A stretch of DNA of 55,699 nucleotides from a virus (IMGVR_UViG_3300032087_006210:1-55699); one strand, 5' to 3'; counted from the first letter of the stretch, positions 28,650 through 40,164 are shown. Made by a program: numbers and translations. Notes: generated by a model not told the origin, from the letters alone.

Positions 28650-29306
28650 TTAAAACTCATATTTAAAAATATCTACATCTACCTTAAAATGATCGTAAAT
28701 AATTTGTTTTTCTTTTTCTCCGTACCAAGCTTGGTATTTTTTTTGAGCTTCATTATTGTTGTTTTGCTTATGTGGAAGCTTTAAGTCAGGTAGCCCCAAA
28801 TTCTTCAGTGTATCTTCGAATTCTGTTTTTAAATTCTCAAAATGTAAAAATTTATCCACAAGGCATTTAAAATCATCACAATGAGCTTCGTATTGAGAAG
28901 CAAAATTTTGTTTAACAAAGCTAGTAGCTTCTACAGCCCAACCGCGAGCACAATTATCATAAACGTCCATAGCCTCGTTTAAACTTGCTTTAACTACTTT
29001 AGCGCTCTCATAATTAGGTGATCCATCTGGGTTCAAAGATCCCTGTTTAATATAAGTTAGATTTTTACTAAAAGTCGCTAAAACCCAATCCCATGGGTTT
29101 CTCACCACAGCAAATTTGAAATATTTTTTAAGTTCTTGATTAGATTCATTAAAAAAATCTCGAGGACAAATGTGTTTAGTTCCATTGTTATCATCATATT
29201 GTTTTGCGTCGTCATGATATGGCCCTAAAGCAGCTTGTATAGAAGAAGTGGCGCAATTTCCCACTGGACAGAAATAAATAAATTTATATTTATGCGAAAT
29301 AACCAT
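28650..29306 (-). CDS. Sulfotransferase family protein
   Basis: A 218-residue protein from MVISHKYKF. The start matches sulfotransferases: KFIYFCPVGNCATSSIQAAL is the 5'-phosphosulfate loop, and FAVVRNPWDWVLATFSKNL is the 3'-phosphate segment binding PAPS. It would move a sulfate group to a glycan. With GT4, GT10 and lectin genes nearby it completes a surface-glycan set. The 43 codons further upstream are low-complexity K/Q/N-rich and are unlikely to be coding. Confidence 0.75.
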   Translation of the reverse strand: MVISHKYKFIYFCPVGNCATSSIQAALGPYHDDAKQYDDNNGTKHICPRDFFNESNQELKKYFKFAVVRNPWDWVLATFSKNLTYIKQGSLNPDGSPNYESAKVVKASLNEAMDVYDNCARGWAVEATSFVKQNFASQYEAHCDDFKCLVDKFLHFENLKTEFEDTLKNLGLPDLKLPHKQNNNNEAQKKYQAWYGEKEKQIIYDHFKVDVDIFKYEF

Positions 29307-29528
29307 TGTTGATTGTATATTTTTTTGTTTGAATTTAAATAGGGCCGCCGATTTTTTTGATTTAGTAAAATTTTGTTTTGTTTGGTTTTGGTTTACATAT
29401 TGAAAAAAAGCACCCCCCGCCGTTATTATAAACATATCATAGTATAAAATTTCAAAAAATGGGTAGGGTTATTGTCAAAAACAATAATTTTAGGCCTAAA
29501 ATTTTTTTAATTTTTTTTGATTTAGGGC
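29307..29528. other. A/T-rich intergenic region with an 18-bp palindrome
   Basis: No gene is supported. It contains AATTTTAGGCCTAAAATT (29486-29503), a perfect palindrome, followed by T-rich runs. It marks the left edge of the cassette array, where the strand and the base composition both change. Confidence 0.6.
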
Positions 29529-29556
29529 TTGCAATTTTCTGTGGTTCTGCTATACT
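29529..29556 (+). promoter_or_regulatory. First promoter of the array, with structured leader
   Basis: TTGCAA, 16-nt spacer, TATACT. The core and spacer are nearly identical to promoters at 31448 and 32667. Here the leader is about 40 nt and holds a hairpin, GCGGG / CCCGC around GGAAGA, before AAAAAAAAGTT-ATG. Confidence 0.75.
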
Positions 29557-29601
29557 GTTTTCAGCAAGCGGGGGAAGACCCGCACAACATAAAAAAAAGT
29601 T

Positions 29602-29748
29602 ATGAAAGACATGAACAATACAGATAAGATGGAGCAGGGTTACGAGGAAGTTTGCACCGGATGCGGCGAGACAGTTTGCTTGTCAAAAGAAGAGCATGAT
29701 CAATGGGATCACGGATTCGACAACTTCATGTGCTGGGAGTGCGAATAA
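29602..29748 (+). CDS. Tiny double-CxxC zinc ribbon protein
   Basis: A 48-residue protein (MKDMNNTDKMEQGYEEVCTG...) with CTGC and CWEC pairs, a zinc ribbon. ATG lies in an AAAAAAGTTATGAAAG context also seen at 30908. First gene of the array. Confidence 0.6.
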   Translation: MKDMNNTDKMEQGYEEVCTGCGETVCLSKEEHDQWDHGFDNFMCWECE

Positions 29749-29767: not shown

Positions 29768-29795
29768 TTGACTTTCAAAAAAATTCTGATATACT
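29768..29795 (+). promoter_or_regulatory. Leaderless promoter, 10-nt class
   Basis: TTGACT, 16 nt, TATACT; exactly 10 nt to the ATG inside GTTATGAG. Confidence 0.75.
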
Positions 29796-29805
29796 GATCC
29801 CCGTT

Positions 29806-30072
29806 ATGAGAGATAAGAAACCATTTTTAAATGTTACCTTCAAAGTGGAGAAGAACCCAACCTACACCGGCAACCACTTCTCGGCCCGTGTTAACCGTGT
29901 CAAGGGCTGCACTTTCCCGCTTGGCACAACCGAGCAGGAAATGATCGACCAGTACCACAACCAAGTGGTGTTGGAGAAAGATATCGACGGCAACAAAGTT
30001 TTGGCTGGTGACATTCACCGCGTCGTTGAAATTGTCAACTGCTTTGAGGATCACGGCTACTTCAGCAAATAA
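29806..30072 (+). CDS. Cassette protein of unknown function
   Basis: An 88-residue globular protein (MRDKKPFLNVTFKVEKNPTY...) with no membrane segment, a beta-rich first half and a helical end. The ATG at 29806 is chosen over the upstream TTG at 29755 because a consensus promoter lies between them and the GTTATGAG context matches other array genes. GC-rich at third positions compared with genes outside the array. Confidence 0.65.
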   Translation: MRDKKPFLNVTFKVEKNPTYTGNHFSARVNRVKGCTFPLGTTEQEMIDQYHNQVVLEKDIDGNKVLAGDIHRVVEIVNCFEDHGYFSK

Positions 30073-30086
30073 AAAAAAATTTCCTG

Positions 30087-30115
30087 TTGACTTTAACATC
30101 TGAATAGACAATAAT
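30087..30115 (+). promoter_or_regulatory. Leaderless promoter, 10-nt class
   Basis: TTGACT, 17 nt, AATAAT; 10 nt to the ATG at 30126 in GTTATGAG. Confidence 0.65.
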
Positions 30116-30125
30116 TTTTCTGGTT

Positions 30126-30425
30126 ATGAGAACAAGAGACAATAACGAAACGGGCGGCTTCGAGCCGCATCAACGCAACCTCGGCGAAAAAGATTTCAGC
30201 AAGCGGCTGAACAATGAGGCCGAACGCTGCGAAGGAATGGCCAATATCAGCGCGGAAGACCTGCGCGGTATCAAGGAGGCTATCGCGGCGGGCTTCCAAA
30301 AGTTCATCCACAAAGACCGCAACATCTACGGCAAAAAAGTAGACCGTAGCCATATGCGCAACCCGTACAACGCGGGCAACTACAACTACGGCAGCAAAGA
30401 CCTGCCGAGCAACGGCACAATGTAA
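30126..30425 (+). CDS. Cassette protein of unknown function
   Basis: A 99-residue, highly polar protein (MRTRDNNETGGFEPHQRNLG...) with a basic, Asn/Tyr-rich C-terminus (NPYNAGNYNYGSKDLPSNG). Probably partly disordered; may bind nucleic acid. GC-rich. Followed by a GC-rich hairpin. Confidence 0.6.
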   Translation: MRTRDNNETGGFEPHQRNLGEKDFSKRLNNEAERCEGMANISAEDLRGIKEAIAAGFQKFIHKDRNIYGKKVDRSHMRNPYNAGNYNYGSKDLPSNGTM

Positions 30426-30431
30426 TCCTTG

Positions 30432-30457
30432 ACGGGGTGCGCGCAAGCGCACCCCGT
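30432..30457 (+). other. Stable hairpin without a T tract
   Basis: ACGGGGTGCGC / GCGCACCCCGT, 11 bp with a GCAA tetraloop, ending two nucleotides before the next -35 box. It is not a classical terminator because no T run follows. Confidence 0.6.
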
Positions 30458-30459
30458 AC

Positions 30460-30488
30460 TTGACAAACGAAATGCGAACATCTACAAT
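30460..30488 (+). promoter_or_regulatory. Consensus promoter with leader
   Basis: TTGACA, 17 nt, TACAAT. The transcript would have a leader of about 55 nt up to an AAGGAG ribosome site and ATG at 30549. Confidence 0.65.
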
Positions 30489-30548
30489 GCCATGAAGAAG
30501 CGAACGAAGAGCGAAGTCTTTAACGATTTTATCCAAGGAGAACCGGAT

Positions 30549-30719
30549 ATGCAGTTGAGAGAAAAATATTATATACAATGCTTTGACAAAAAAGTATTTG
30601 AAAAAGTGTCGGATGCACAAAAGCATGTTAAGAATCAGCAAAAGTATTACAAGACCAAGTCACGTATCTACCAATGCAAAATCTGTGGAAACTACCACAT
30701 CACAACAAAATTCAAATAA
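30549..30719 (+). CDS. Small basic protein with Cys pair
   Basis: A 56-residue protein (MQLREKYYIQCFDKKVFEKV...) ending in CKICGNYHITTK, a zinc-finger-like CxxC...H. AAGGAG stands 8 nt before ATG 30549. Earlier in-frame starts would overlap the promoter. Its stop overlaps the next ATG (TAATG). Confidence 0.55.
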   Translation: MQLREKYYIQCFDKKVFEKVSDAQKHVKNQQKYYKTKSRIYQCKICGNYHITTKFK

Positions 30720-31123
30720 TGAACCAAATAAACGTAAAGCCCGACCTAAAGGCAATTGAGCAAAAGATAAGAGAATTTAATCAACGATTCGACCCGCCCC
30801 GCGCAGAAAAAAAAGTTGAAAAAAAGTTATCAAAAGGGTTGACTCTGCGCTCAATATGGAATAAGCTTTTCTCAGCGGTTCGGAAGAACCCAAACACAAA
30901 AAAAGTTATGATGACAACTGAACAAATCCTAAAGGAAATAGAGAGCGTACCACGCCACCACATCACCTACACTCGGCAGGATGGCCGCACCAACGAATAC
31001 ACGGTAGCCATCACCGAGCGTCACGCCGACCACATTATCGGCTACAAGTTCCAGAACGGCGAAAGCTGCGGCATTCGTCGATTCAACATCGACCAAATCG
31101 GTATCCTTGAGCCGGTCAGTTAG
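30719..31123 (+). CDS. Cassette protein with WYL-like C-terminal segment
   Basis: A 134-residue reading frame. The C-terminal 70 residues (ITYTRQDGRTNEYTVAITER, then IGYKFQNGESCGIRRFNIDQ) recall WYL-type ligand or nucleic-acid-binding domains. An internal ATG pair at 30908 has its own promoter-like TTGACT...TAAGCT (30838-30866), a GGTTC / GAACC hairpin and an AAAAAAAGTTATG context like the gene at 29602, so a 71-residue product may be the main one. The first 60 residues are K-rich and could be leader sequence only. Confidence 0.5.
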   Translation: MNQINVKPDLKAIEQKIREFNQRFDPPRAEKKVEKKLSKGLTLRSIWNKLFSAVRKNPNTKKVMMTTEQILKEIESVPRHHITYTRQDGRTNEYTVAITERHADHIIGYKFQNGESCGIRRFNIDQIGILEPVS

Positions 31124-31303
31124 TGTAGACACCATGTGCATCTGGCGGGGCAGATGTAAAGCTAACCCCGACAATTTTGAGTCGGCGGAGTTAAATACCC
31201 CTGCGAGTTTTTATAGGCAGCTCGCGCCCGTTTTACTGCTGGTGGTGCGGCAGCGACTCAATAATCTGTGGACCCGTGTGTGCGTTGTCTACCTCATAAC
31301 AGT
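31124..31303 (+). ncRNA. Possible structured RNA or long 3' leader
   Basis: 180 bases between a stop codon and a terminator with no convincing gene; an open frame there runs into the terminator's T tract. Several local stems are visible: CATCTG / CAGATG, CCGAC / GTCGG, CTGC / GCAG. It ends with CCTCATAAC (31292-31300). A noncoding RNA is possible but unproven. Confidence 0.3.
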
Positions 31304-31335
31304 AAAACACCCCGCGAAAGCGGGGTGTTTTTTTT
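31304..31335 (+). terminator. Intrinsic terminator of array segment 1
   Basis: AAAACACCCCGC / GCGGGGTGTTTT with a GAAA loop and T run. Preceded by CCTCATAAC. Confidence 0.9.
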
Positions 31336-31356
31336 GAAAAAAAGTGAAGAAAAAGC

Positions 31357-31403
31357 TTGACGTCTAACGGCCGGCGGCCTTGCGCCCAAACGTTAGATGT
31401 CAA
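31357..31403. repeat. 47-bp attC-like palindrome, copy 1
   Basis: Arms TTGACGTCTAACG / CGTTAGATGTCAA (12 of 13 pair) around a GC-rich core. Inner boxes GTCTAAC and GTTAGAT match the integron R'' and R' consensus. A perfect A/T hairpin (AAAAATAAAAAAA / TTTTTTTATTTTT) follows at about 31410-31437. Confidence 0.85.
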
Positions 31404-31447
31404 CAAGAAAAATAAAAAAAGTTTTTTTATTTTTTTTAAAAAAAGGG

Positions 31448-31475
31448 TTGCAATTTTCTGTGGCTGTGCTATACT
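31448..31475 (+). promoter_or_regulatory. Leaderless promoter, 10-nt class
   Basis: TTGCAA, 16 nt, TATACT; 10 nt to ATG 31486 in GTTATGAG. Confidence 0.8.
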
Positions 31476-31485
31476 GTCTCCAGTT

Positions 31486-31629
31486 ATGAGAGATATGATT
31501 AAAAATGCTGAGTTTGCAAACTGGATACGCCAAGCGCAAAAAAAGGAATGGGAAATGATTCCCGAAGCCGAACGCCCCACATGGGAGCAGTTCAAACGCG
31601 GCTTAAAAAAGAAAAAAAATTCAAATTAA
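31486..31629 (+). CDS. Tiny cassette protein
   Basis: A 47-residue basic protein (MRDMIKNAEFANWIRQAQKK...), one or two amphipathic helices ending in a poly-Lys tail. The start is fixed by the leaderless promoter. Function unknown. Confidence 0.6.
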   Translation: MRDMIKNAEFANWIRQAQKKEWEMIPEAERPTWEQFKRGLKKKKNSN

Positions 31630-31632
31630 CGC

Positions 31633-31660
31633 TTGCTTTTTTCTGAGAGTCTGATATACT
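31633..31660 (+). promoter_or_regulatory. Leaderless promoter, 10-nt class
   Basis: TTGCTT, 16 nt, TATACT; 10 nt to ATG 31671 in GTTATGAG. Its -35 box is four bases after the previous stop. Confidence 0.75.
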
Positions 31661-31670
31661 TTTTTTCGTT

Positions 31671-31868
31671 ATGAGAGATATGTTTGATAATATGTACACG
31701 GTTCGGATTGCCAACTCTGGTGATGTTGCTGGTTTCGCACGTTCTCACGATGGTCTTGAAAAGGCCATCACGTTGGCCGCGCGGGAGGATACTGAGGTGA
31801 CCTTCGGCGGCGAGGTCGTTTGGCCGAATATACATTCTGCCACCATAAAGAATGGAGGTGCCAAATGA
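31671..31868 (+). CDS. Cassette protein, paralogue of the gene at 35492
   Basis: A 65-residue protein. SHDGLEKAITLAARE aligns with SHEGLEAAITCAREA of the 35492 product, at the same distance from the start, and both end with an E-V/I-V-W segment. This is a small alpha/beta fold of unknown role. Four-base overlap (ATGA) with the next gene. Confidence 0.65.
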   Translation: MRDMFDNMYTVRIANSGDVAGFARSHDGLEKAITLAAREDTEVTFGGEVVWPNIHSATIKNGGAK

Positions 31869-32329
31869 TGTCGGCCAAATTAACAATGACCGGCAGCGAC
31901 GGATCGCGTTGCGTGGTGGACTTCGGTCTCGAAATGAGAGACCGTCCTTCCATCGATTGGCGCACACTTGAAAACGTTGAGTCAGCTTATACGTTCAGCG
32001 CGTCCGGTGAAATCTCAAATGATTCGTTTGGGCAAAATCTCGATGAAATGTATCGATTGAATGGTGATAACTATCTTTTTCGCCGTATATACAAATACTG
32101 GAAAAAATATCATCTAAATGATCTTCAAGCTGGCACTCAACAGCAAGCGGAAATTTTAAAAAAATGTCCATCAACAGATTACGATGATCGATGTGAATTT
32201 TTGAAAAAAAATGATCTGTATGTTGATCGCGGTTATACGTACGGCACAAAGTGGTTGACTCAAGTCATTCCCGACAATATAGTCAGCGAGATAAAAAAAT
32301 TGATAATTGAAGTGCGCGGCTGGAGTTAA
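31865..32329 (+). CDS. Unknown protein
   Basis: A 154-residue protein starting at an ATG pair eight bases after a GGAGGT ribosome site, so it is translated from a polycistron with the previous gene. The N-terminal 60 residues are beta-like (KLTMTGSDGSRCVVDFGLEM), the rest helical and basic (YRLNGDNYLFRRIYKYWKKY). No family recognised. Confidence 0.55.
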   Translation: MMSAKLTMTGSDGSRCVVDFGLEMRDRPSIDWRTLENVESAYTFSASGEISNDSFGQNLDEMYRLNGDNYLFRRIYKYWKKYHLNDLQAGTQQQAEILKKCPSTDYDDRCEFLKKNDLYVDRGYTYGTKWLTQVIPDNIVSEIKKLIIEVRGWS

Positions 32330-32330
32330 A

Positions 32331-32540
32331 ATGAAAAAAATAATCTGTTTAGTTGGTGCGATCTGTTTAACAGGTTGCGTGGTTACCGAGAAGGAAATTG
32401 TGCATCGTAAAATATCGTTTGCCGATACTAACAGCGTCACAACGGTATATTATCCTCCGTCATGGGATAAGTTTGTCAAAGCTCCCGATGATGGCACGCC
32501 CAAAACTATGCTTGTGCGATTTGGTCAGGCGCTAGAATAA
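32331..32540 (+). CDS. Small lipoprotein
   Basis: A 69-residue protein, MKKIICLVGAICLTGCVV, with lipobox LTGC. Starts one base after the previous stop. A mature part of about 54 residues. Ends directly at a terminator. Confidence 0.7.
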   Translation: MKKIICLVGAICLTGCVVTEKEIVHRKISFADTNSVTTVYYPPSWDKFVKAPDDGTPKTMLVRFGQALE

Positions 32541-32565
32541 AAAACGCACAAAGTGCGTTTTTTTT
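32541..32565 (+). terminator. Intrinsic terminator of array segment 2
   Basis: AAAACGCAC / GTGCGTTTT with AAA loop and T run; the next palindrome begins two bases later. Confidence 0.85.
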
Positions 32566-32566
32566 G

Positions 32567-32613
32567 TTGACGTCTAACGGCCGGCGGGCCGGCCGCGAAA
32601 CGTTAGATGTCAA
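32567..32613. repeat. 47-bp attC-like palindrome, copy 2
   Basis: Arms TTGACGTCTAACG / CGTTAGATGTCAA; core identical to copy 6 and to the orphan core at 2634. The core itself folds as GGCCGGC / GCCGGCC. Confidence 0.85.
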
Positions 32614-32666
32614 GCCTAAAATGCAAAAAATTTAAAAAAGTTTTTTTAAAAAAGTGAAAAAAGTGC

Positions 32667-32694
32667 TTGCAATTTTCTGAAGCTGTGATATACT
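32667..32694 (+). promoter_or_regulatory. Leaderless promoter, 10-nt class
   Basis: TTGCAA, 16 nt, TATACT; 10 nt to ATG 32705 in GTTATGAGG. Confidence 0.8.
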
Positions 32695-32704
32695 GTTTTT
32701 CGTT

Positions 32705-32866
32705 ATGAGGGAAATCGACATCAAAATCCAAAAACTGGAAAAGGAAATCATGTTCGGCAAGTGGCTGGCCTTTGACCCGATCAAAGACCACCAGCTAAAA
32801 GTTCGTAAGTTTAACATCGAGAAGCGGAAGCTTCTCGATGCCGAAGCTCAAAAAAATAAAAAATAA
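32705..32866 (+). CDS. Tiny helical cassette protein
   Basis: A 53-residue, strongly charged helical protein (MREIDIKIQKLEKEIMFGKW...). Start fixed by the leaderless promoter. Unknown. Confidence 0.6.
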   Translation: MREIDIKIQKLEKEIMFGKWLAFDPIKDHQLKVRKFNIEKRKLLDAEAQKNKK

Positions 32867-32869
32867 TTG

Positions 32870-32898
32870 TTGACTTTGAGCGCAAACTGTGATTTAAT
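32870..32898 (+). promoter_or_regulatory. Leaderless promoter, 10-nt class
   Basis: TTGACT, 17 nt, TTTAAT; 10 nt to ATG 32909 in GTTATGAGG. Confidence 0.7.
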
Positions 32899-32908
32899 AA
32901 ACGGAGTT

Positions 32909-33148
32909 ATGAGGACGTACACGTTATACTGGAAGGACGAAGACACCAATAGGGTGCGCAGCGAAGAATTCTCCAACAAGACCGGTTGGGATCACTCTGC
33001 GATGAACGCGGCAATGGAGATGGCCGAAGAGGCCGACAAGAATGGGTTTCCGTGGGTGCTGGAAGAGGACGGTTGCCAAGTTGCCCACGGCAACAACGGC
33101 GACCTGCTCGGAGTCTATCGCTACCAAGGATTTCCCAAATTTGGCTAA
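32909..33148 (+). CDS. Cassette protein of unknown function
   Basis: A 79-residue acidic protein (MRTYTLYWKDEDTNRVRSEE...) with a beta-helix-beta look (HSAMNAAMEMAEEADKNG helix). Marked GC-rich third positions. Unknown. Confidence 0.65.
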   Translation: MRTYTLYWKDEDTNRVRSEEFSNKTGWDHSAMNAAMEMAEEADKNGFPWVLEEDGCQVAHGNNGDLLGVYRYQGFPKFG

Positions 33149-33157
33149 AAATAATTG

Positions 33158-33185
33158 TTGACTTTACCGAAAAACCTGATAAACT
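33158..33185 (+). promoter_or_regulatory. Leaderless promoter, 10-nt class
   Basis: TTGACT, 16 nt, TAAACT; 10 nt to ATG 33196 in GTTATGAG. Confidence 0.7.
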
Positions 33186-33195
33186 AATTTTTGTT

Positions 33196-33417
33196 ATGAG
33201 AGAAATCATGAACATATTCTATCGGCCCGAAATCCACAACGGGGTTATCAACAAGAACAACGACCTGCACAGCTATCGGATTGAGTTGGACGAATCTTTC
33301 GAGAATCGTTCAAACAACGAAAAGTTCGCTGGCATCGGCGGCACTTGCACCGAGACTGGCAAATACAAGCGGTTCCGCATGGATAGGTTGGAAGGTATGT
33401 TCCCCGTCGAAAACTAA
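33196..33417 (+). CDS. Cassette protein of unknown function
   Basis: A 73-residue polar protein (MREIMNIFYRPEIHNGVINK...), Asn- and Arg-rich. First gene of a polycistron that continues into the cell wall hydrolase gene. Unknown. Confidence 0.6.
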   Translation: MREIMNIFYRPEIHNGVINKNNDLHSYRIELDESFENRSNNEKFAGIGGTCTETGKYKRFRMDRLEGMFPVEN

Positions 33418-33428
33418 AAATCAATAAA

Positions 33429-33908
33429 ATGAAAAAAATTCTTTTAAGCAAAAGTTTTAGAATCTTTTACTGGATCTGCTTGGCCATTGTTACCGTCTCT
33501 GCTTATGGAAACACGCACAAAAATCATCAACTCACTAGAGAGCAAAAAATTGTCGCCATTACCATTTTGGCGGAGGCCAGAGGGGAAGGGGAAGCGGGAA
33601 TGTATGCTGTTGGTGCTTGCATCGCTCAGAGAGCATTTGAAAGAAAACAAACCCCATCGGAGGTCTGTCTTAAAAAATGGCAGTTCAGTTGTTGGAACGG
33701 TAAAACCGTCAAAGACCTTGAGCATCTGTTGAAAGTACCGCAAGCCAAGTATGCAATTACCGTGGCCAAAAATGTCAAACATCTGTCGCGTGATTTCATC
33801 GGCTTCGCTAATCATTACCACGCAACATGGATGAAAAAGAAACCGTATTGGGCAAAAGGTCAAAAGCCTGTCAAAGTAATTGGACAACACGCATTTTACA
33901 AGCTATGA
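33429..33908 (+). CDS. Secreted SleB/CwlJ-type cell wall hydrolase (endolysin)
   Basis: A 159-residue protein. Residues 1-27 are a signal or signal-arrest segment (FRIFYWICLAIVTVSAYG). Residues 38-155 are a hydrolase_2 domain: ITILAEARGEGEAGMYAVG carries the catalytic Glu, followed by VCLKKWQFSCWNG and FANHYHATW...W...VIGQHAFYK. It would cleave peptidoglycan; an exported form needs no holin channel. It is the only lysis enzyme seen in the window and lies inside the array. Confidence 0.85.
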   Translation: MKKILLSKSFRIFYWICLAIVTVSAYGNTHKNHQLTREQKIVAITILAEARGEGEAGMYAVGACIAQRAFERKQTPSEVCLKKWQFSCWNGKTVKDLEHLLKVPQAKYAITVAKNVKHLSRDFIGFANHYHATWMKKKPYWAKGQKPVKVIGQHAFYKL

Positions 33909-34012
33909 AATCAATTAAGATAAACTGGAGTTTAGTTGACAAAAAAATTGAAATTGATATAGTCAAGGCACGCTTAAATCGTAACCGTAAATTAAAAAAG
34001 ATATTCAAATGA
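33905..34012 (+). CDS. Tiny basic protein
   Basis: A 35-residue Lys/Arg/Ile-rich peptide (MKSIKINWSLVDKKIEIDIV...) overlapping the hydrolase stop (ATGA) and the next gene's ATG. Real translation is suggested only by the two overlaps. Confidence 0.4.
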   Translation: MKSIKINWSLVDKKIEIDIVKARLNRNRKLKKIFK

Positions 34013-34167
34013 AAAAACCATTGCCCGAACTGAACAGCGACGAAAAACTAATGCTGCGTTGTTACTTGAAAAAAATTATTCAGATTGGCGGCTTGTCCAA
34101 TCGCCTCGTCAAAATCATGGAATCGACTGACACAAAAACTCTGCAAAAAATTTCTTGTCCATCATAA
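34009..34167 (+). CDS. Tiny unknown protein
   Basis: A 52-residue protein (MKKPLPELNSDEKLMLRCYL...) in a four-base overlap with the previous gene. Its stop codon lies in CATAAC directly before CCTCATAAC. Confidence 0.5.
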   Translation: MKKPLPELNSDEKLMLRCYLKKIIQIGGLSNRLVKIMESTDTKTLQKISCPS

Positions 34168-34180
34168 CCTCATAACACTA

Positions 34181-34210
34181 AACACCCCGCTTCGGCGGGG
34201 TGTTTTTTTT
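34181..34210 (+). terminator. Intrinsic terminator of array segment 3
   Basis: AACACCCCGC / GCGGGGTGTT with TTCG loop and T run; preceded by CCTCATAAC (34168-34176). Nearly the same stem as at 31304. Confidence 0.9.
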
Positions 34211-34222
34211 CTAAAAAAAGTC

Positions 34223-34269
34223 TTGACGTCTAACGGTCGGCGGCGCCCCCGCGAAGCGTTAGATGTCAA
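34223..34269. repeat. 47-bp attC-like palindrome, copy 3
   Basis: Arms TTGACGTCTAACG / CGTTAGATGTCAA, core GTCGGCGGCGCCCCCGCGAAG. Followed by the same A/T hairpin as copy 1. Confidence 0.85.
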
Positions 34270-34315
34270 GCAAAAAAATAAAAAAAGTTTTTTTATTTTT
34301 TTTGGTATTAAGGGG

Positions 34316-34343
34316 TTGACATTCTCTGAGTTTGTGGTATTCT
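34316..34343 (+). promoter_or_regulatory. Leaderless promoter, 9-nt gap
   Basis: TTGACA, 16 nt, TATTCT; 9 nt to ATG 34353 in GTTATGAGG. Confidence 0.75.
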
Positions 34344-34352
34344 GATTCCGTT

Positions 34353-34508
34353 ATGAGGTTAGATCAACAGATCGCAGAGTTGGCCCAAGTTTCACTTGAG
34401 GAGGTTTTTCACAATGATCCCCACGCTCGCGCTGAATACGAGGCGCAGTGTGACATCTGGCGCGACGAAGCTATCGCCGCGCAGGATGAGGAGGTGTCCA
34501 ATGGGTAG
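34353..34508 (+). CDS. Tiny acidic cassette protein
   Basis: A 51-residue acidic helical protein (MRLDQQIAELAQVSLEEVFH...). Overlaps the next gene by eight bases; a GAGGAGG ribosome site for that gene lies in its last codons. Confidence 0.6.
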   Translation: MRLDQQIAELAQVSLEEVFHNDPHARAEYEAQCDIWRDEAIAAQDEEVSNG

Positions 34509-34719
34509 CCCGTTTGCCGATATCGATTGGGCGGACTATATGTCCACCTTTCCCACGGGCGACGCGCCCGCCAAGCGCAAGCCAGATCCGGCTTTTCCTG
34601 TGGCCGTGCGCCGTGCCGCTATGATGCTTTGGCTGAATGAATTCAAGCCCACCAAAAGCCCAAAAAAATTGGCTGAATTGGAAAAATTTTCTTTACTTGT
34701 TGAAAAATTTGTGCGATAA
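34501..34719 (+). CDS. Small cassette protein
   Basis: A 72-residue protein (MGSPFADIDWADYMSTFPTG...), acidic start and Lys-rich helical end. Translationally coupled to the previous gene. Unknown. Confidence 0.6.
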   Translation: MGSPFADIDWADYMSTFPTGDAPAKRKPDPAFPVAVRRAAMMLWLNEFKPTKSPKKLAELEKFSLLVEKFVR

Positions 34720-34720
34720 T
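34692..34720 (+). promoter_or_regulatory. Leaderless promoter, 10-nt class
   Basis: TTTACT, 17 nt, GATAAT; 10 nt to ATG 34731 in GTTATGAG. The promoter overlaps the end of the previous gene. Confidence 0.6.
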
Positions 34721-34730
34721 CTTTTTTGTT

Positions 34731-35072
34731 ATGAGAGAAATGAAAACCTATAAGTTCAAGCAGACCGACATGACACCGGAAGGTTTGCAGATAATCGAGG
34801 ACGGTCATGAGTTTTATTATGACCCCGAGGTCGAGCACGAGGATGATGTCAGTAAGATCTGGCACGACATCCATTGTGCTGTCACCACCAAGCGCGTGTT
34901 CCATCTCGACTGGTCGCCGTACTCCAAACCCTCCAGCATCGAACTGGAAATGTGGTTCTCGCTCGGCTGTCCTAATCGTTGGACTATCAACGACGGCAAA
35001 AGCGTCGGCAGCCTGACTAGGAAGCGGCTGCTCGAGGCGATGGGCCGCAACCTCAGTATCGAAGGATACTGA
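34731..35072 (+). CDS. Cassette protein of unknown function
   Basis: A 113-residue acidic protein (MREMKTYKFKQTDMTPEGLQ...), probably alpha/beta, with aromatic residues clustered at VFHLDWSPYSKPSSIELEMW. GC-rich codons. Its transcript should continue into the tRNA. Confidence 0.65.
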   Translation: MREMKTYKFKQTDMTPEGLQIIEDGHEFYYDPEVEHEDDVSKIWHDIHCAVTTKRVFHLDWSPYSKPSSIELEMWFSLGCPNRWTINDGKSVGSLTRKRLLEAMGRNLSIEGY

Positions 35073-35078
35073 GGTACG

Positions 35079-35152
35079 CGCGGGGTAGCCAAGTGGTAAG
35101 GCGGGAGTCTGCAAAACTCTTATCGGCGGTTCGATTCCGCCCCTCGCGTCCA
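35079..35152 (+). tRNA. tRNA-Cys (GCA anticodon)
   Basis: Acceptor CGCGGGG / CCTCGCG with one G-T pair, D stem GCC / GGC, anticodon stem GGAGT / ACTCT with loop CTGCAAA giving GCA, T stem GGCGG / CCGCC with loop TTCGATT, discriminator T as usual for Cys, and an encoded CCA. It is the only tRNA seen and it lies inside an array segment, seven bases after the preceding stop. Confidence 0.93.
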
Positions 35153-35172
35153 AATTTTTTTTAAAAAAAGTC

Positions 35173-35219
35173 TTGACATCTAACGCTGGGCGGGCACGCC
35201 GCGAACGGTTAGAAGTCAA
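35173..35219. repeat. 47-bp attC-like palindrome, copy 4
   Basis: Left arm TTGACATCTAACG, right arm GGTTAGAAGTCAA (one base altered), core CTGGGCGGGCACGCCGCGAAC. R' box GTTAGAA ends in A rather than the consensus Y. Confidence 0.8.
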
Positions 35220-35263
35220 ACAAAAAACAAAAAATAAAAATAAATTTTTTTTCATTTTAGGGG

Positions 35264-35291
35264 TTGACTTATCTGAAAAATGCTGTATACT
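35264..35291 (+). promoter_or_regulatory. Leaderless promoter, 10-nt class
   Basis: TTGACT, 16 nt, TATACT; 10 nt to ATG 35302 in GTTATGAG. Confidence 0.8.
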
Positions 35292-35301
35292 GATTTCTGT
35301 T

Positions 35302-35457
35302 ATGAGAGATAATGTTACTTGTGAGGAGGTTTTTGAGTTGCACGCGGATTCATGGGTTGCGGACGTTACTGTCCCGAACGGCTTCGACGATGTCGAGGCC
35401 GAGGCCGATGATCGGTGCTGGTGCAAGTTTTTTGAGTCATGCTCTGAATGCGCTTGA
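35302..35457 (+). CDS. Tiny acidic Cys-rich cassette protein
   Basis: A 51-residue acidic protein (MRDNVTCEEVFELHADSWVA...) with four Cys in its second half or start (CWCKFFESCSEC). Possible small metal-binding protein. Unknown. Confidence 0.6.
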   Translation: MRDNVTCEEVFELHADSWVADVTVPNGFDDVEAEADDRCWCKFFESCSECA

Positions 35458-35481
35458 CTTTTTTTTAAATTTTGATATACT
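35454..35481 (+). promoter_or_regulatory. Leaderless promoter, 10-nt class
   Basis: TTGACT, 16 nt, TATACT; 10 nt to ATG 35492 in GTTATGAGG. The -35 box covers the stop codon of the previous gene. Confidence 0.8.
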
Positions 35482-35491
35482 GTTTTTTGTT

Positions 35492-35707
35492 ATGAGGATT
35501 CATGCCAAATACTTTGTTGAGGTCAAGTCCGCCACCGGTCGGCTTGAGTTTGTCCATTGGTTCGCTCCGAGCCACGAGGGTCTTGAGGCTGCGATCACTT
35601 GCGCCCGTGAGGCCAAGTCCGCCGTCAAGTGCAAGGTCGCCCCGTGCGACCTGTCCAACTCTCCGTACGATTGGGAAATCGTATGGGAAGATCCCGAAAA
35701 AAATTAA
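35492..35707 (+). CDS. Cassette protein, paralogue of the gene at 31671
   Basis: A 71-residue protein. SHEGLEAAITCAREA matches the 31671 product, and the ends agree in a W-E-I-V-W type segment. Two copies in different segments suggest duplication with the array. Unknown small alpha/beta protein. Confidence 0.65.
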   Translation: MRIHAKYFVEVKSATGRLEFVHWFAPSHEGLEAAITCAREAKSAVKCKVAPCDLSNSPYDWEIVWEDPEKN

Positions 35708-35716
35708 TTTTTTTCG

Positions 35717-35763
35717 TTGACATCTAACGGCCGGCGGGGTCGCCGTGACAGATTAGATGTTTT
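35717..35763. repeat. 47-bp attC-like palindrome, copy 5 (degenerate right end)
   Basis: Left arm TTGACATCTAACG is intact; the right arm reads GATTAGATGT then TTT instead of CAA. Core GCCGGCGGGGTCGCCGTGACA. It is the most decayed copy. Confidence 0.75.
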
Positions 35764-35896
35764 TTTATAATTGCCTGATTATCAACATATTACAAAAGTA
35801 TAATTTATATATTTCAGGTTATTTAGTATTTATGTATTTACTATTTACTATTTCAGAGATTACTATTTGCAATAAAATAATTTATAGATAAAATAA
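35764..35896. other. A/T-rich low-complexity segment
   Basis: No gene. Short repeats of TATTTACTATTTACTATTT type (about 35825-35860) follow the palindrome. Similar to the segment after copy 8; possible unwinding element or decayed sequence. Confidence 0.4.
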
Positions 35897-35924
35897 AAAA
35901 CCCCTCCCTTGCGGGAGGGGTTTT
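35897..35924. terminator. Bidirectional intrinsic terminator
   Basis: AAAACCCCTCCC / GGGAGGGGTTTT with TTGC loop; A and T runs on the two sides allow function on either strand. Confidence 0.85.
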
Positions 35925-36024
35925 ATCGAACTATCCCCAATGCTAACCAGCGGAAACCTAAATGAAATACATCATGTATATAATAACAATGGTAACTTGT
36001 AACGCTCACACCGGAGCCCGACAC

Positions 36025-36062
36025 CTCCCGCCCCAGATGGCTAGCAGATTCTGGGACGGGAG
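36025..36062 (-). terminator. Hairpin downstream of the 36081 gene
   Basis: CTCCCGCCCCAGA pairs with TCTGGGACGGGAG (one mismatch) 19 bases after the stop codon on the minus strand. No strong T run, so it may protect the 3' end rather than terminate. The rest of 35925-36080 shows no gene. Confidence 0.5.
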
Positions 36063-36080
36063 TGGGTTGTTGGCTGCGGC

Positions 36081-36314
36081 TTAGTTGCCGTTGGCCATAC
36101 GGGTCACGGTAGCCTTGTGGCCACGGTACTCGTAATCGGTCAGCTTGAACTGGCGACGAACAGCAGACTTGCTCTTGCCGGAGCGGATCGCGGCGCGAAT
36201 GTTGTTGCTGCGGTCGTTGCCTGTAGCAGTCGCACGGCGAGACGTCGGAGTCTCGGTCAATGCGTCAACTACTGCGCTGACGATTTTGGTAAGTTGGGAT
36301 TCAGTCAATTTCAA
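36081..36314 (-). CDS. Small basic DNA-binding-like protein
   Basis: A 77-residue protein (MKLTESQLTKIVSAVVDALT...) with a TTG start after a GAAAGGAA ribosome site. The C-terminal half (RAAIRSGKSKSAVRRQFKLT, then DYEYRGHKATVTRM) looks like a helix-turn-helix. GC-rich codons as in other array genes, but reversed in orientation. It has a separate promoter and an 80-nt leader. Confidence 0.55.
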   Translation of the reverse strand: MKLTESQLTKIVSAVVDALTETPTSRRATATGNDRSNNIRAAIRSGKSKSAVRRQFKLTDYEYRGHKATVTRMANGN

Positions 36315-36399
36315 TTGAATATTCCTTTCATTACATGGTTAGCATCAGGGCCACTTGGCCAGCACGCGAATGCTCCGTTATGCATCCCGCACTCCAAAA

Positions 36400-36428
36400 A
36401 GTTTGCACTAGTGTCTTCATGATGTCAA
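36400..36428 (-). promoter_or_regulatory. Promoter of the 36081 gene
   Basis: TTGACA, 17 nt, CAAACT on the minus strand, with a leader of about 80 nt containing GGCCA / TGGCC. The remaining sequence 36429-36656 holds a GTGC-rich hairpin near 36490-36512 but no gene. Confidence 0.55.
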
Positions 36429-36656
36429 CGATTAATCCAAACTTTTTTTGTGTTTTTCTTTCCGGGTGTACTTCGTTTTATCCCGGTGCACCACTGCAGG
36501 TGGCGCACTAAGTTTACGTATCTTCTTCCATATGTCAACAAGTTTTTTCAATTTAATTTTTTGATTTAATGTGTAGCATAATAGCAAACAATAAACCCCC
36601 CAATAATATAACTGCTAAATACACGGCCTGAAATATACTCGGTTGCTCGGTTCATG

Positions 36657-37598
36657 TCAAGCGTAACCTCCGCCGTGATGGGCCTTGATCGCACCGACTT
36701 GAGCCGGTGTGCATTTGTACATATCGCACAACTCATCACGGGTAAAACGAAAATATTTTAAATCTGAGGCAAGCTGAGATTTTTTCGAGTCGCTCAACGG
36801 CGCAGATTTTGGAGATTTTGGAGTGGCGCGGTTGATGCGCGAACGAATAGGATTGCAAACCTTCAAAACATCAGCACAATTGCTGAAGCCGATCATCATC
36901 ATCGGATGCTTTTGCGCTTGATACTCGACCGACATGATGCACTTGACCTTATTGCCCGTGCGTTCGTTAATGTAATCGACGACCACATCTGTGATGTGGT
37001 CGGCCATGATGCCGCCGCGCTCCTCAATCCTAGAATCAACAGCAGAAATAATTTCATCTGGCATACAAGACTTGGCAATGACGCAAGCGTCAAACGTGGC
37101 AAACACCAAACTATTATGGACAAAATTTTTGGGGTCAGTCACAATGTCCAAATTGGATTGACTCGGAACGCCCGTGAAATCATACCAAGCAGCAAAATTA
37201 TTTTTTGCGTGTTGGTTGCTGGGAATGTCACTCAAATGATATTCGCCGCTGAAATTAGGATAAAGATCGTTATCGTTACGCATAAAAGCGCGTGTCCCCG
37301 TTTGGGCGCAATATGTGGATTCGTCATTCTCAAAGCAATGCAAATTAATTTGGCCAGAATGCTTAACACCAAACATTGTGCTGATCTCGGACATTTGCAA
37401 ACTTCTAGCAGCAACAAAAGATTCAAAGTCCCAAAGTGTGGCTGGCAAACTGTAAACCGTGCCAACCTTCGCGGTGTATTTAGTGCCTTGCCTAGTCTTA
37501 ACAAAATTTTGCAAGCTATCTAGCCAAATGCTAAATGCTTTCATAACCCACACGCGCTGCTTGGCCTTTTCCTCGTTGACGCAAAGTGTCGTTTCCAT
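36657..37598 (-). CDS. Unknown protein with C-terminal helix-turn-helix-like segment
   Basis: A 313-residue protein from METTLCVNEEKAKQR. The middle is alpha/beta with HSLVFATFDACVIAKSCMPD; the C-terminal 45 residues (LKYFRFTRDELCDMYKCTPA, then QVGAIKAHHGG) resemble a helix-turn-helix. ATG 37598 sits 7 nt after a -10 box, so the start is leaderless; the ATG two codons earlier would lie within the untranscribed discriminator. Reversed relative to the array. No family recognised. Confidence 0.6.
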   Translation of the reverse strand: METTLCVNEEKAKQRVWVMKAFSIWLDSLQNFVKTRQGTKYTAKVGTVYSLPATLWDFESFVAARSLQMSEISTMFGVKHSGQINLHCFENDESTYCAQTGTRAFMRNDNDLYPNFSGEYHLSDIPSNQHAKNNFAAWYDFTGVPSQSNLDIVTDPKNFVHNSLVFATFDACVIAKSCMPDEIISAVDSRIEERGGIMADHITDVVVDYINERTGNKVKCIMSVEYQAQKHPMMMIGFSNCADVLKVCNPIRSRINRATPKSPKSAPLSDSKKSQLASDLKYFRFTRDELCDMYKCTPAQVGAIKAHHGGGYA

Positions 37599-37605
37599 GC
37601 ACAAA

Positions 37606-37633
37606 ATCTTACTACATAGACAGATAGAGTCAA
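37606..37633 (-). promoter_or_regulatory. Leaderless-type promoter, minus strand
   Basis: TTGACT, 16 nt, TAAGAT, 7 nt to ATG 37598. Confidence 0.65.
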
Positions 37634-37687
37634 CCGTCTTTTTAAAAAAAATTTTAAAAAAAACTTACCGAAGGGAAGTTTTTTTGC

Positions 37688-37734
37688 TTGACATCTAACG
37701 GCCGGCGGGCCGGCCGCGAAACGTTAGAAGTCAA
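37688..37734. repeat. 47-bp attC-like palindrome, copy 6
   Basis: Arms TTGACATCTAACG / CGTTAGAAGTCAA; core identical to copy 2. It separates the reversed block from the next plus-strand segment. Confidence 0.85.
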
Positions 37735-37736
37735 GG

Positions 37737-37765
37737 AAAAAATGCACCTCCGGTGCATTTTTTTT
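37737..37765. terminator. Bidirectional hairpin with A/T flanks
   Basis: AAAAAATGCACC / GGTGCATTTTTT with a TCC loop, three bases after palindrome copy 6. Works as a terminator in either direction. Confidence 0.75.
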
Positions 37766-37868
37766 GAGTGTAATTTTTTTTCGATTATTGTGTTTTTTAT
37801 GTTGCAATTCATCTCCAAATGGTGCATCATTTTTTCGTTGGCAATGAGGTCAACACCCTATCAAAGTT

Positions 37869-38636
37869 ATGACAGGTTTAATGTTACACTGCGGGGCGAA
37901 CCGAGTCGAGTACGGCGAAGTTCAGGATTCCGTGACGCCCGAGGCAACTCGGACGCACACGCCCATCCCCCATTCCCACCTCGTTGACCTAGTTCGCGAT
38001 GGTTTGGGCCGTGCGAATATGGCTATCCTTGAGGAAAGTCATGCTCTCACTCACGATGCAAATCGGTACTTCGGTTTGTTTCGCATCGGCACTGGTAGCG
38101 AATCCAGTGAATCTCAGGATTACGGTGCAGTCATGGGGCTGCGTAATTCTCACGACAAAACTTTTCCATCTGCGCTTGCGTTTGGTGCGAATGTTTTTGT
38201 CTGCGACAACCTCTCCTTCAACGGCGAGGTCAAGTTAGGCCGTAAGCATACGGTTCACATCCTCCGCGATTTGCCACAGTTGGTGTCCCGCACCATCGGC
38301 AAGTTGGGTGACGCATGGGGTTTGCAGAAGCAACGCTTCAACGCATACCGCGATCACGGGCTGTCCCGTTCCGAGGCGCACGATGTTATCATCGAGGCGT
38401 TCCGCGCTGGTGCTTGTACAAGCACGCAGATTCGCAAGGTGGTTGATCAATGGCACGCGCCAAACCACCCTGAGTTCAAGCCGCGCAATGCGTGGTCAAT
38501 GTTCAATGCCTTCACCGAGGTGTTGAAAGGCAACCTCAACGAGTTGCCCAAGCGCACGCAAGCTCTCCATGGTTTCATGGACGGTCACTGCGGGGTCAAG
38601 TTCGAGCGTCAGGCTGACGTCGTGCTGGAGGCCTAA
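37869..38636 (+). CDS. DUF932 / phage-plasmid-like protein
   Basis: A 255-residue protein. DYGAVMGLRNSHDKTFPSAL, then ALAFGANVFVCDNLSFNGEV and RKHTVHILRDL are the hallmark segments of DUF932 (phage/plasmid-like protein), a family common on mobile elements and of unsettled role. GC-rich. A weak promoter (TTGCAA at 37802) is likely upstream; the ATG is in a GTTATGA context but without the usual 10-nt spacing. Confidence 0.8.
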   Translation: MTGLMLHCGANRVEYGEVQDSVTPEATRTHTPIPHSHLVDLVRDGLGRANMAILEESHALTHDANRYFGLFRIGTGSESSESQDYGAVMGLRNSHDKTFPSALAFGANVFVCDNLSFNGEVKLGRKHTVHILRDLPQLVSRTIGKLGDAWGLQKQRFNAYRDHGLSRSEAHDVIIEAFRAGACTSTQIRKVVDQWHAPNHPEFKPRNAWSMFNAFTEVLKGNLNELPKRTQALHGFMDGHCGVKFERQADVVLEA

Positions 38637-38642
38637 CACCTT

Positions 38643-38664
38643 GGCCCTCCCTGCGGGGAGGGCC
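38643..38664 (+). other. GC-rich hairpin before the terminator
   Basis: GGCCCTCCC / GGGAGGGCC with TGCG loop, six bases after the DUF932 stop and just before CCTCATAAC. Confidence 0.6.
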
Positions 38665-38680
38665 ATGTCCTCATAACGCA

Positions 38681-38712
38681 AACCTACCCGCGCAAGCGGG
38701 TAGGTTTTTTCT
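38681..38712 (+). terminator. Intrinsic terminator of the DUF932 segment
   Basis: AACCTACCCGC / GCGGGTAGGTT with GCAA loop and T run; preceded by CCTCATAAC (38669-38677). Confidence 0.9.
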
Positions 38713-38734
38713 TTGAATTTTTTTGATTTTTCCC

Positions 38735-38781
38735 TTGACATCTAACGGCCGGCGGGCCGCCCGCGAAGCGTTAGAAGTCAA
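38735..38781. repeat. 47-bp attC-like palindrome, copy 7
   Basis: Arms TTGACATCTAACG / CGTTAGAAGTCAA, core GCCGGCGGGCCGCCCGCGAAG. An A/T hairpin (ACTTTTTTAAAAAAAGT type) follows. Confidence 0.85.
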
Positions 38782-38815
38782 CCAAAAACTTTTTTAAAAA
38801 AAGTTTTTTTAAAAT

Positions 38816-38843
38816 TTGACATTCGGCCGCTTTACTGTAGACT
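38816..38843 (+). promoter_or_regulatory. Leaderless promoter, 6-nt class
   Basis: TTGACA, 16 nt, TAGACT; 6 nt to ATG 38850. Confidence 0.65.
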
Positions 38844-38849
38844 TGGGGC

Positions 38850-39059
38850 ATGGAAACAAATAAGAGCCATCAAATGGAATCTTTTCTTGAAAACATGGGC
38901 CAGCAATTGTTTGGCCGCAGTCGCGAGGTTTCTTCCGACAACCAATTGTGCATTTCATGCGGCGCAGATGCAAATCATTTCCGTGATGAAATTTCACGCA
39001 AAGAGTACGGCATATCTAAGCTGTGTCAAACGTGTCAAGATTCTGTGTTTGGGGGTTGA
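38850..39059 (+). CDS. Small zinc-finger-like protein
   Basis: A 69-residue protein with CISCGADANHF and LCQTCQDS, a four-Cys zinc ribbon in its second half. Its stop codon TGA is part of the TTGACA -35 box of the next gene. Confidence 0.65.
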   Translation: METNKSHQMESFLENMGQQLFGRSREVSSDNQLCISCGADANHFRDEISRKEYGISKLCQTCQDSVFGG

Positions 39060-39083
39060 CATTTGCACAGATAGCTGTTAAAT
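39056..39083 (+). promoter_or_regulatory. Leaderless promoter, 10-nt class
   Basis: TTGACA, 16 nt, TTAAAT; 10 nt to ATG 39094 in GTTATGAG. Confidence 0.65.
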
Positions 39084-39093
39084 TTTTTTTGTT

Positions 39094-39726
39094 ATGAGAA
39101 TGACCGTCAAAGAAGTCACACAGAAAGTTGGTTCGTTGTCCAAGCCGTCCAAGATGCCGGGCCACGGATACAGCACGCCAGCAAAAGATTGTATCACGGG
39201 CAGCAAGCTGGCCAAGATAGTTGATTCTATCTGTTCAATTTGCTACGCCAAAAAAGGCCGTTATGTTTTTCCGAATGTTATCGCGGCAATGGAAAAACGG
39301 TTAAAATCTTTAAGTAGTTTGCATTGGGTGGACTACATGGTTTTTCTTATCGGCAAGCAAGAGAAGAGCGGATATTTTCGCTGGCATGATAGCGGCGATG
39401 TTCAAGGTGTCTGGCATCTTGAGAAGATTGCAGAGGTTGCAAGGCGATTGCCCAACATTAAATTTTGGTTGCCAACCAGAGAATACGGTTTCGTGCGGGA
39501 GTGGATGAAATTCGCTAAAGTGCCAAAAAATTTGACAATAAGACTGTCCGCTTACATGATAGACGGCAAGCCGCCAACTAGCTTGGCAAAAAAATTAGGA
39601 TTAACAACAAGCGGTGTTTCTCCTGACGGGTTCAACTGTCCAGCCTCAAAACAGGACAACCAGTGCGCCGAGTGCCGCGCTTGTTGGGACGGTTCGGTTG
39701 AGAATATCAATTACAAAAAGCACTGA
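39094..39726 (+). CDS. Gp88-like phage protein
   Basis: A 210-residue protein. The layout CSICYAKKGRYVFPNVIAAM, YFRWHDSGDVQGVWHLEKI, FWLPTREYGFV and a Cys-rich end (NCPASKQDNQCAECRACWDG, then SVENINYKKH) matches the mycobacteriophage 'gene 88' family widespread in phages. Six or more conserved Cys could hold a metal or iron-sulfur cluster. Function of the family is unknown to me. Confidence 0.75.
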   Translation: MRMTVKEVTQKVGSLSKPSKMPGHGYSTPAKDCITGSKLAKIVDSICSICYAKKGRYVFPNVIAAMEKRLKSLSSLHWVDYMVFLIGKQEKSGYFRWHDSGDVQGVWHLEKIAEVARRLPNIKFWLPTREYGFVREWMKFAKVPKNLTIRLSAYMIDGKPPTSLAKKLGLTTSGVSPDGFNCPASKQDNQCAECRACWDGSVENINYKKH

Positions 39727-39812: not shown

Positions 39813-39972
39813 ATTTATTAAAATTTTATAATTATATATCGCGCCCTTTATTTGTTATTAAGTTATTTATAATTCACTTATTTGTATTTGCCTTATTTAC
39901 AATTTATTTATTTACAATTATATTATTTACTTATTTAGTGTTTATTTATTTAGCTTTTTATTATTTACAATT
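39813..39972. other. A/T-rich low-complexity segment, possible unwinding region
   Basis: No gene. Repeats of TTATTTACAATT and TTATTTA occur several times (39885-39970). It lies where the direction of genes changes from plus to minus. Confidence 0.4.
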
Positions 39973-40164
39973 CTATTTTTTATCCGGCCCATTATATATT
40001 ATTACATTGACATATTCGCTATCTTCGTAATCGTTGAGTGCCATGTTGCCGGTCGCCGCTTCCCACATACGAGAGATCTTCACCTTGTTGGAGGTCGTGG
40101 AGCTTTGCTCCACGACCTCCCTCCGCATATCCTCGATATGCTTACGCTGTTTTTGACTTGACAT
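39973..40164 (-). CDS. Small unknown protein with internal hairpin
   Basis: A 63-residue polar protein (MSSQKQRKHIEDMRREVVEQ...) whose start overlaps the end of the RuvB-like gene by 23 bases. Its mRNA contains a perfect 14-bp hairpin (40090-40120). Unknown. Confidence 0.5.
   Translation of the reverse strand: MSSQKQRKHIEDMRREVVEQSSTTSNKVKISRMWEAATGNMALNDYEDSEYVNVIIYNGPDKK
40090..40120 (-). other. Perfect 14-bp hairpin inside a coding region
   Basis: GGAGGTCGTGGAGC / GCTCCACGACCTCC with a TTT loop. Each arm contains GGAG or CTCC, so folding could hide or expose a ribosome-site-like sequence. Confidence 0.7.

Follow-up and report, generated by a model that had tools for sequence, protein, structure and literature searches.

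A strict 13-nt start element coupled to promoters in a phage gene array, with complementary elements before terminators

We analyzed a stretch of viral DNA of 55,699 nt (IMGVR_UViG_3300032087_006210; the window) and found that it holds an array of short genes whose starts share one motif, GTTATGAG, directly behind a promoter. On the + strand, GTTATGAG is present as 12 copies in the whole 55.7 kb, all of them confined to 29803–39098 (first bases at 29803, 30123, 31483, 31668, 32702, 32906, 33193, 34350, 34728, 35299, 35489 and 39091). Over both strands there are 16 matches as compared to 1.44 expected, and 0 of 100 dinucleotide shuffles reached as many as 16. Each + strand copy is preceded by a sigma70-like promoter, with a spacer of 16–17 nt between the –35 and –10 hexamers and 9–10 nt from the –10 to the ATG. 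The initial annotation of this DNA, which proposed a family of leaderless promoters, had listed 12 such positions, and we found a promoter and an ATG at all of them. It had described the start as almost always GTTATGAG, which is right as to the motif and understates it, with 12 of 12 listed sites carrying GTTATGAG. Its gap of 9 nt at 34316 was the same on re-check; its gap of exactly 10 nt holds for the other listed sites except 39056, where the value is 9 or 10 depending on which –10 hexamer is chosen.

All 12 cassettes lie on the + strand, and in cassettes 1 to 7 and 9 to 11 the ATG follows the –10 by 10 nt. TTGACT is found with TATACT in cassette 1 (29768–29815, gene 29806–30072), which carries the start element GTTATGAGAGATA, in cassette 10 (35264–35311, gene 35302–35457) and in cassette 11 (35454–35501, gene 35492–35707); it is found with AATAAT in cassette 2 (30087–30135, gene 30126–30425), with TTTAAT in cassette 6 (32870–32918, gene 32909–33148) and with TAAACT in cassette 7 (33158–33205, gene 33196–33417). 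Cassettes 3 (31448–31495, gene 31486–31629) and 5 (32667–32714, gene 32705–32866) have TTGCAA and TATACT, cassette 4 (31633–31680, gene 31671–31868) has TTGCTT and TATACT, and cassette 9 (34692–34740, gene 34731–35072) has TTTACT and GATAAT. In cassette 8 (34316–34362, gene from 34353), TTGACA and TATTCT are followed by 9 nt to the ATG; in cassette 12 (39056–39103), TTGACA and TTAAAT or TAAATT are followed by 9–10 nt and a GP88-family gene (39094–39726). The –10 hexamers are weaker at three sites, 30087 (AATAAT), 32870 (TTTAAT) and 39056 (TTAAAT). Except for GP88 at 39094, no protein family of known function was found for the cassette genes.

To place the array among relatives, we scanned IMG/VR with TATACT-N7-GTTATGAGRGA, which returned 28 stretches, many with several copies. 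We fetched 17 relatives and dropped one duplicate, and the 16 IMG/VR relatives and the window (1.03 Mb together) were scanned for promoters, defined by a score of 12 or more. Because the scan matrices were built from the –35 and –10 parts alone, this search is unbiased by the sequence downstream. An ATG lies exactly 10 nt past the –10 in 122 of about 330 promoters and 9 nt past it in 20, and the median for other offsets is about 6 ATGs and the maximum 26 (at 19 nt); the contigs are related to one another, so that counts across relatives are not independent. The initial annotation had named spacing that varies among relatives as evidence that would count against it, and what we found is that the spacing is conserved. 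If these were ordinary leadered genes transcribed from promoters further upstream, the fixed gap would be incidental. Some array genes do overlap or closely succeed one another, as such genes might; however, more than 120 promoters share the spacing and the 9–10 nt from the –10 to the ATG are too short for a Shine-Dalgarno (SD) site, and we consider this explanation scarcely credible.

The promoters consist of TTGACT or TTGCAA and an extended –10, TGNTATACT (TGn before the –10), and the great majority of spacers are 16–17 nt. In the 122 sites with a gap of 10 nt, the bases that flank the ATG are conserved on both sides: G-3 in 94%, U-2 in 93%, U-1 in 95%, A+4 in 87% and G+5 in 80%. The following A, G, A, T and A are each present at 57–77%, and conservation weakens past +10. 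Since the conserved flank reaches to +10, the conserved element is the 13-nt GTTATGAGAGATA.

The cassette ATGs open real genes, and conserved orthologues bear this out. Read in frame with the ATG, 145 of 154 sites stay open for at least 40 codons; the two alternative frames do so at 6 and 13 sites. The first 40 nt are weakly folded (mean –2.3 kcal/mol, versus –7.7 inside genes). Across the families of promoter-coupled proteins, many unrelated proteins begin with MRD or MRE, and this could mean that the N-terminal peptide is selected as a protein tag. The codons argue otherwise: arginine at codon 2 is AGA or AGG in 88 of 88 cases (background 56%), aspartate at codon 3 is GAT rather than GAC by 53 to 6 (background 63:37) and glutamate at codon 3 is GAA in 25 of 27 (background 67%). 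This restriction to AGA and AGG and the preference for GAT and GAA indicate selection on nucleotides and not on the peptide, and GTT precedes the start codon, outside any peptide. We rejected peptide selection on codon choice and hold it to be highly improbable. Orthologues of one protein may carry the cassette start or a different one; judged by these sequences, GTTATGAGAGATA with its promoter is a modular promoter-start cassette that appears to have moved between genes. The other genes of these phages have an SD signal that peaks at –9 to –17, and no more than 3.7% and 9% of their starts carry GTT and AG, respectively.

The position of the –10 predicts that these mRNAs begin GUU-AUG, and near-leaderless initiation is very likely. 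The initial annotation had suggested that the mRNA starts at about GTTATG, and this is supported by room for a leader of no more than about 3–4 nt, by open ATG frames, by the kept spacing and by the weak 5' fold. In the mechanism that we propose, host RNA polymerase carrying the main sigma factor would take the G of GTTATG, or the base ahead of it, as the first nucleotide, giving a leader of about 3 nt (GUU-AUG-AGA-GAU). A leader of this size would leave no room for an SD site, and loading would occur at the near-5'-terminal AUG in an SD-independent manner; the purine-rich AGAGAUA would keep the 5' end unstructured.

Starts of other types occur in the array and in the relatives. At 38816–38852 (+), TTGACA and TAGACT are followed by 6 nt and an ATG at the predicted start site itself, with a gene at 38850–39059, and this zero-leader type is also found several times in the relative G001. 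At 37866, within the array, there is a GTTATGA without a clear promoter. Five relatives have a second start class, A-GUGAGUGAGAGA, in which a predicted A is followed by GTG AGT GAG AGA. The GTG lies 7 nt after the –10, which would give a leader of one base; of 25 such GTGs, 22 open a frame that runs for more than 40 codons without a stop, and this frame usually takes in the first ATG downstream as well. We observed the second class as A-GTGAGTGAGAGA in G004, G008, G010, G013 and G015 (L071-L081, L086-L088). Taken together, the phages appear to have a preference for 5'-terminal starts, which takes several forms.

The letters that follow the transcription start could instead be an initially transcribed sequence that governs start choice and promoter escape, with translation context secondary. 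The purine-rich TGAGAGA is common to both start classes at about equal distance from the –10, and an avoidance of G at –4 (2 of 124 sites) would fix the transcription start at G-3, both as expected from such a role. However, GTT shifts with the ATG where the gap is 9 instead of 10, and it is the ATG frame that codes. We judge a mainly transcriptional role to be improbable.

The flanks of the AUG match the initiator tRNA. GUUAUGAG and CUCAUAAC are exact reverse complements, and CUCAUAAC comprises the anticodon loop of the initiator tRNA and the first base of the 3' stem (C39). Around the anticodon, the initiator tRNA reads GGCTCATAACC in both a Rhodobacteraceae metagenome-assembled genome (MAG) and E. 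coli, and CTCATAAC was read in both sources, from tRNA-Met of the MAG and from the E. coli gene metZ. The bases on both sides of the AUG are complementary to the tRNA loop, as extended codon-anticodon pairing calls for. GUUAUGAG may extend the codon-anticodon helix over the whole loop, with U-2 and U-1 facing A38 and A37, and A+4 and G+5 facing U33 and C32. Extended pairing with the tRNA is a tentative explanation for the conserved flanks. It would be like the extended codon-anticodon interaction of Esposito et al. (2003), as that work is cited in PMC9841429, in that bases flanking the AUG pair with the initiator tRNA loop; unlike that case as cited there, the whole loop and C39 are here matched in one motif for a gene set, from sequence alone.

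The complement of the start is enriched before terminators. Of 131 distinct terminators, 16 have CTCATAAC in the 40 nt that precede them (0.47 expected), and in 14 of these the distance to the hairpin is 2–8 nt; the octamer is among the most enriched 8-mers upstream of terminators. Its reverse complement and its reversed sequence, used as controls, were found upstream of 0 of 131 terminators. In the window, the copies upstream of terminators are at 31293, 34169 and 38670. All three are on the + strand and are present as CCTCATAAC followed by an intrinsic terminator, at 31292–31334, at 34168–34209 directly after the gene at 34009–34167, and at 38669–38710 in the 3' untranslated region (UTR) of a DUF932 gene. 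Most of these anti-start elements are located in 3' UTRs. When folded, CTCATAAC is predicted to be mostly unpaired, and in several phages it sits inside loops of unlike stems (GGCAAC-CUCAUAACU-GUUGCU, CGACUCU-CUCUCAUAACU-AGAGUCG and CUGUUA-CCUCAUAAC-UAACAG). G010 has what looks like an independent small RNA, with a strong promoter of its own, the loop CUCUCAUAACU, a terminator and a match to GUUAUGAGAGA over 11 nt. A phage-like contig of the Rhodobacteraceae MAG also holds both the start element and the anti-start element. We considered and rejected two other candidates here. A conserved long RNA at 31118–31340 found no support in the window, as alignment with three relatives shares just the last ~60 nt (GTGTGTGCG...CCTCATAACACTAAACACC-terminator), and opposite-strand genes starting from CTCATAAC sites were ruled out by the absent promoter, the terminator upstream and early stops.

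Because the messages would have one 5'-terminal octamer in common, any RNA that exposes CUCAUAAC could pair with the whole set. Such an anti-start RNA could switch off the short genes together, or cap their 5' ends. That the anti-start element pairs functionally with the common start, masking it, is a possibility to which we give slightly less than even weight. With less confidence, we suggest an RNA regulon in which RNAs with CUCAUAAC, placed in hairpin loops or directly ahead of terminators, mimic the tRNA loop and compete with the initiator tRNA for the start codon, controlling dozens of near-leaderless messages. These RNAs would be like the trans-acting phage small RNAs reviewed in PMC12197685 in having stable hairpins, an exposed loop and an intrinsic terminator, and unlike them in that the targets would be the phage's own messages, reached via the common near-leaderless start. 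The pairing might also occur in cis, with the 5' GUUAUGAG of a transcript closing onto the 3' CUCAUAAC of the same transcript and guarding it from decay or limiting its translation. Within the cassette array, the anti-start element does lie directly upstream of terminators that end transcription units, and the pairing of GUUAUGAG with CUCAUAAC over 8–9 bp would be worth –8 to –11 kcal/mol. However, several array terminators (e.g., near 32543 and 39742) have no CTCATAAC, and the apparent stand-alone RNA of G010 carries the anti-start element without a GTTATGAG of its own. We consider such a closed loop to be distinctly unlikely.

The most serious competitor is a protein. The 13-nt element (in RNA, GUUAUGAGAGAUA) could be the operator of a RegA-like start-codon repressor, in which case the leader would be short and the conservation would come from protein binding. 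In T4, about 30 mRNAs have a RegA site over the AUG, a common sequence over the start codon of many phage genes as seen here, and the consensus obtained by systematic evolution of ligands by exponential enrichment, aaAAUUGUUAUGUAA, contains GUUAUG (PMC3014915), which makes this a serious lead. The element is 13 unstructured nt, more than pairing with the tRNA or CUCAUAAC requires, and GTTATG is also present at some leadered starts. Two of these lie behind promoters on the + strand of the window: one of cassette type (29529–29610), whose leader has a small hairpin, an A-run and GTTATGAAAG with GTTATGA at 29599, and one (30840–30917) with a hairpin leader, an A-run and GTTATGATG with GTTATGA at 30905. 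In contrast, RegA (PF01818) was not found in the window and 15 relatives, which include contigs of 170 and 144 kb, although the records may be incomplete; the same search detects T4 RegA with an E value of 2e-75. The T4 sites are loose A+U-rich sequences in leadered SD mRNAs, whereas the cassette element is strict, and a RegA-type repressor would leave CTCATAAC before terminators unexplained. On balance, a repressor of this kind seems unlikely to us, if less so than the closed loop.

Our overall account is that promoter-start cassettes drive an SD-independent start that would be aided by pairing with the tRNA and could be masked by anti-start RNAs. Besides the relatedness of the contigs, several points weigh against it. 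The transcription start is a prediction from the –10 position. The tRNA part is weakened by the zero-leader ATG starts of these phages, which do not have the AG flank, and by a published test in E. coli, described in a review (PMC4611024), in which complementarity of codon and anticodon is reported to be insufficient by itself for leaderless translation; the 13-nt element also exceeds what the tRNA loop or the anti-start octamer accounts for. As for masking, 13 of the 16 copies of CTCATAAC at terminators are preceded by C, where most starts (mRNA base A) would need T. In the phages that have the second start class, a search before terminators failed to find the complement of that class, a negative result for co-variation of target and antisense. 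With these points set against the evidence above, we lean slightly towards the whole account.

No close isolates of the phage were found by DNA, terminase matches are about 25% identical, and the hint of Rhodobacteraceae consists of one MAG-binned contig and of RIIA, which matches phage DSS3_MAL1 at 27%. A search of Rfam at gathering scores returned tRNA only. The phage carries RIIA/RIIB, ThyX and a clamp loader, and there are genes of the sulfotransferase family and for a glycosyltransferase at window positions 28650–29435 (–) and 14002–15105 (+), respectively. A long inverted repeat, TTGACRTCTAACG-(GC-rich, ~20 nt)-CGTTAGAnGTCAA, is present in eight copies in the window (approximate starts 31359, 32569, 34225, 35175, 35716, 37690, 38737 and 39768) and in two in G002; each copy lies past one transcription unit and ahead of the promoter that follows, and the repeat is possibly an insulator, a protein site or a mobile repeat. 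Past the array, at 39825–39982, TTATTTA units make up an A/T-rich tandem repeat of about 15 nt; the clamp-loader gene on its far side runs in the opposite direction. In the relatives, the motif AAGTGTAATA is found upstream of many larger genes that are uncoupled to cassette promoters, mostly 16 nt before the ATG; it is likely a late promoter of the phage family, perhaps giving short leaders too. A conserved short transcript that begins GGTAGTAAGGCTTGGA or GAAGTAAGGCTTGGA lies behind a cassette-type promoter in G011 (minus, ~131900), G014 (plus, 14855) and G003 (plus, 44) and is a candidate for another small RNA.

Taken singly, leaderless genes, small RNAs and repressors acting at start codons have all been described before. 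Leaderless mRNAs include that of lambda cI and those of the TANNNT leaderless genes of Deinococcus and actinobacteria. The cassettes are like these in that the start codon is at or next to the predicted transcription start, at a fixed spacing from the –10 and with no SD. They are unlike them in the 3-nt GUU leader, in the strict 13-nt element common to unrelated genes, and in their use as an array by a single phage family, in which the remaining genes have an SD peak. We found no description in the open-licence papers searched of an array of strict 13-nt start modules together with anti-start elements before terminators. Leaderless initiation has mostly been studied gene by gene, and in the cassettes a single strict element recurs as more than 120 natural replicates, beside SD-bearing genes of the same phages. 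Small-RNA control of leaderless messages, for which the cassettes are also a candidate, is treated as possible and not yet found in a 2022 review, which sees no obvious reason against finding small RNAs on such messages and implies that none was known to it (PMC9031893). With this array, the old question of whether bases that flank the AUG pair with the initiator tRNA becomes directly testable.

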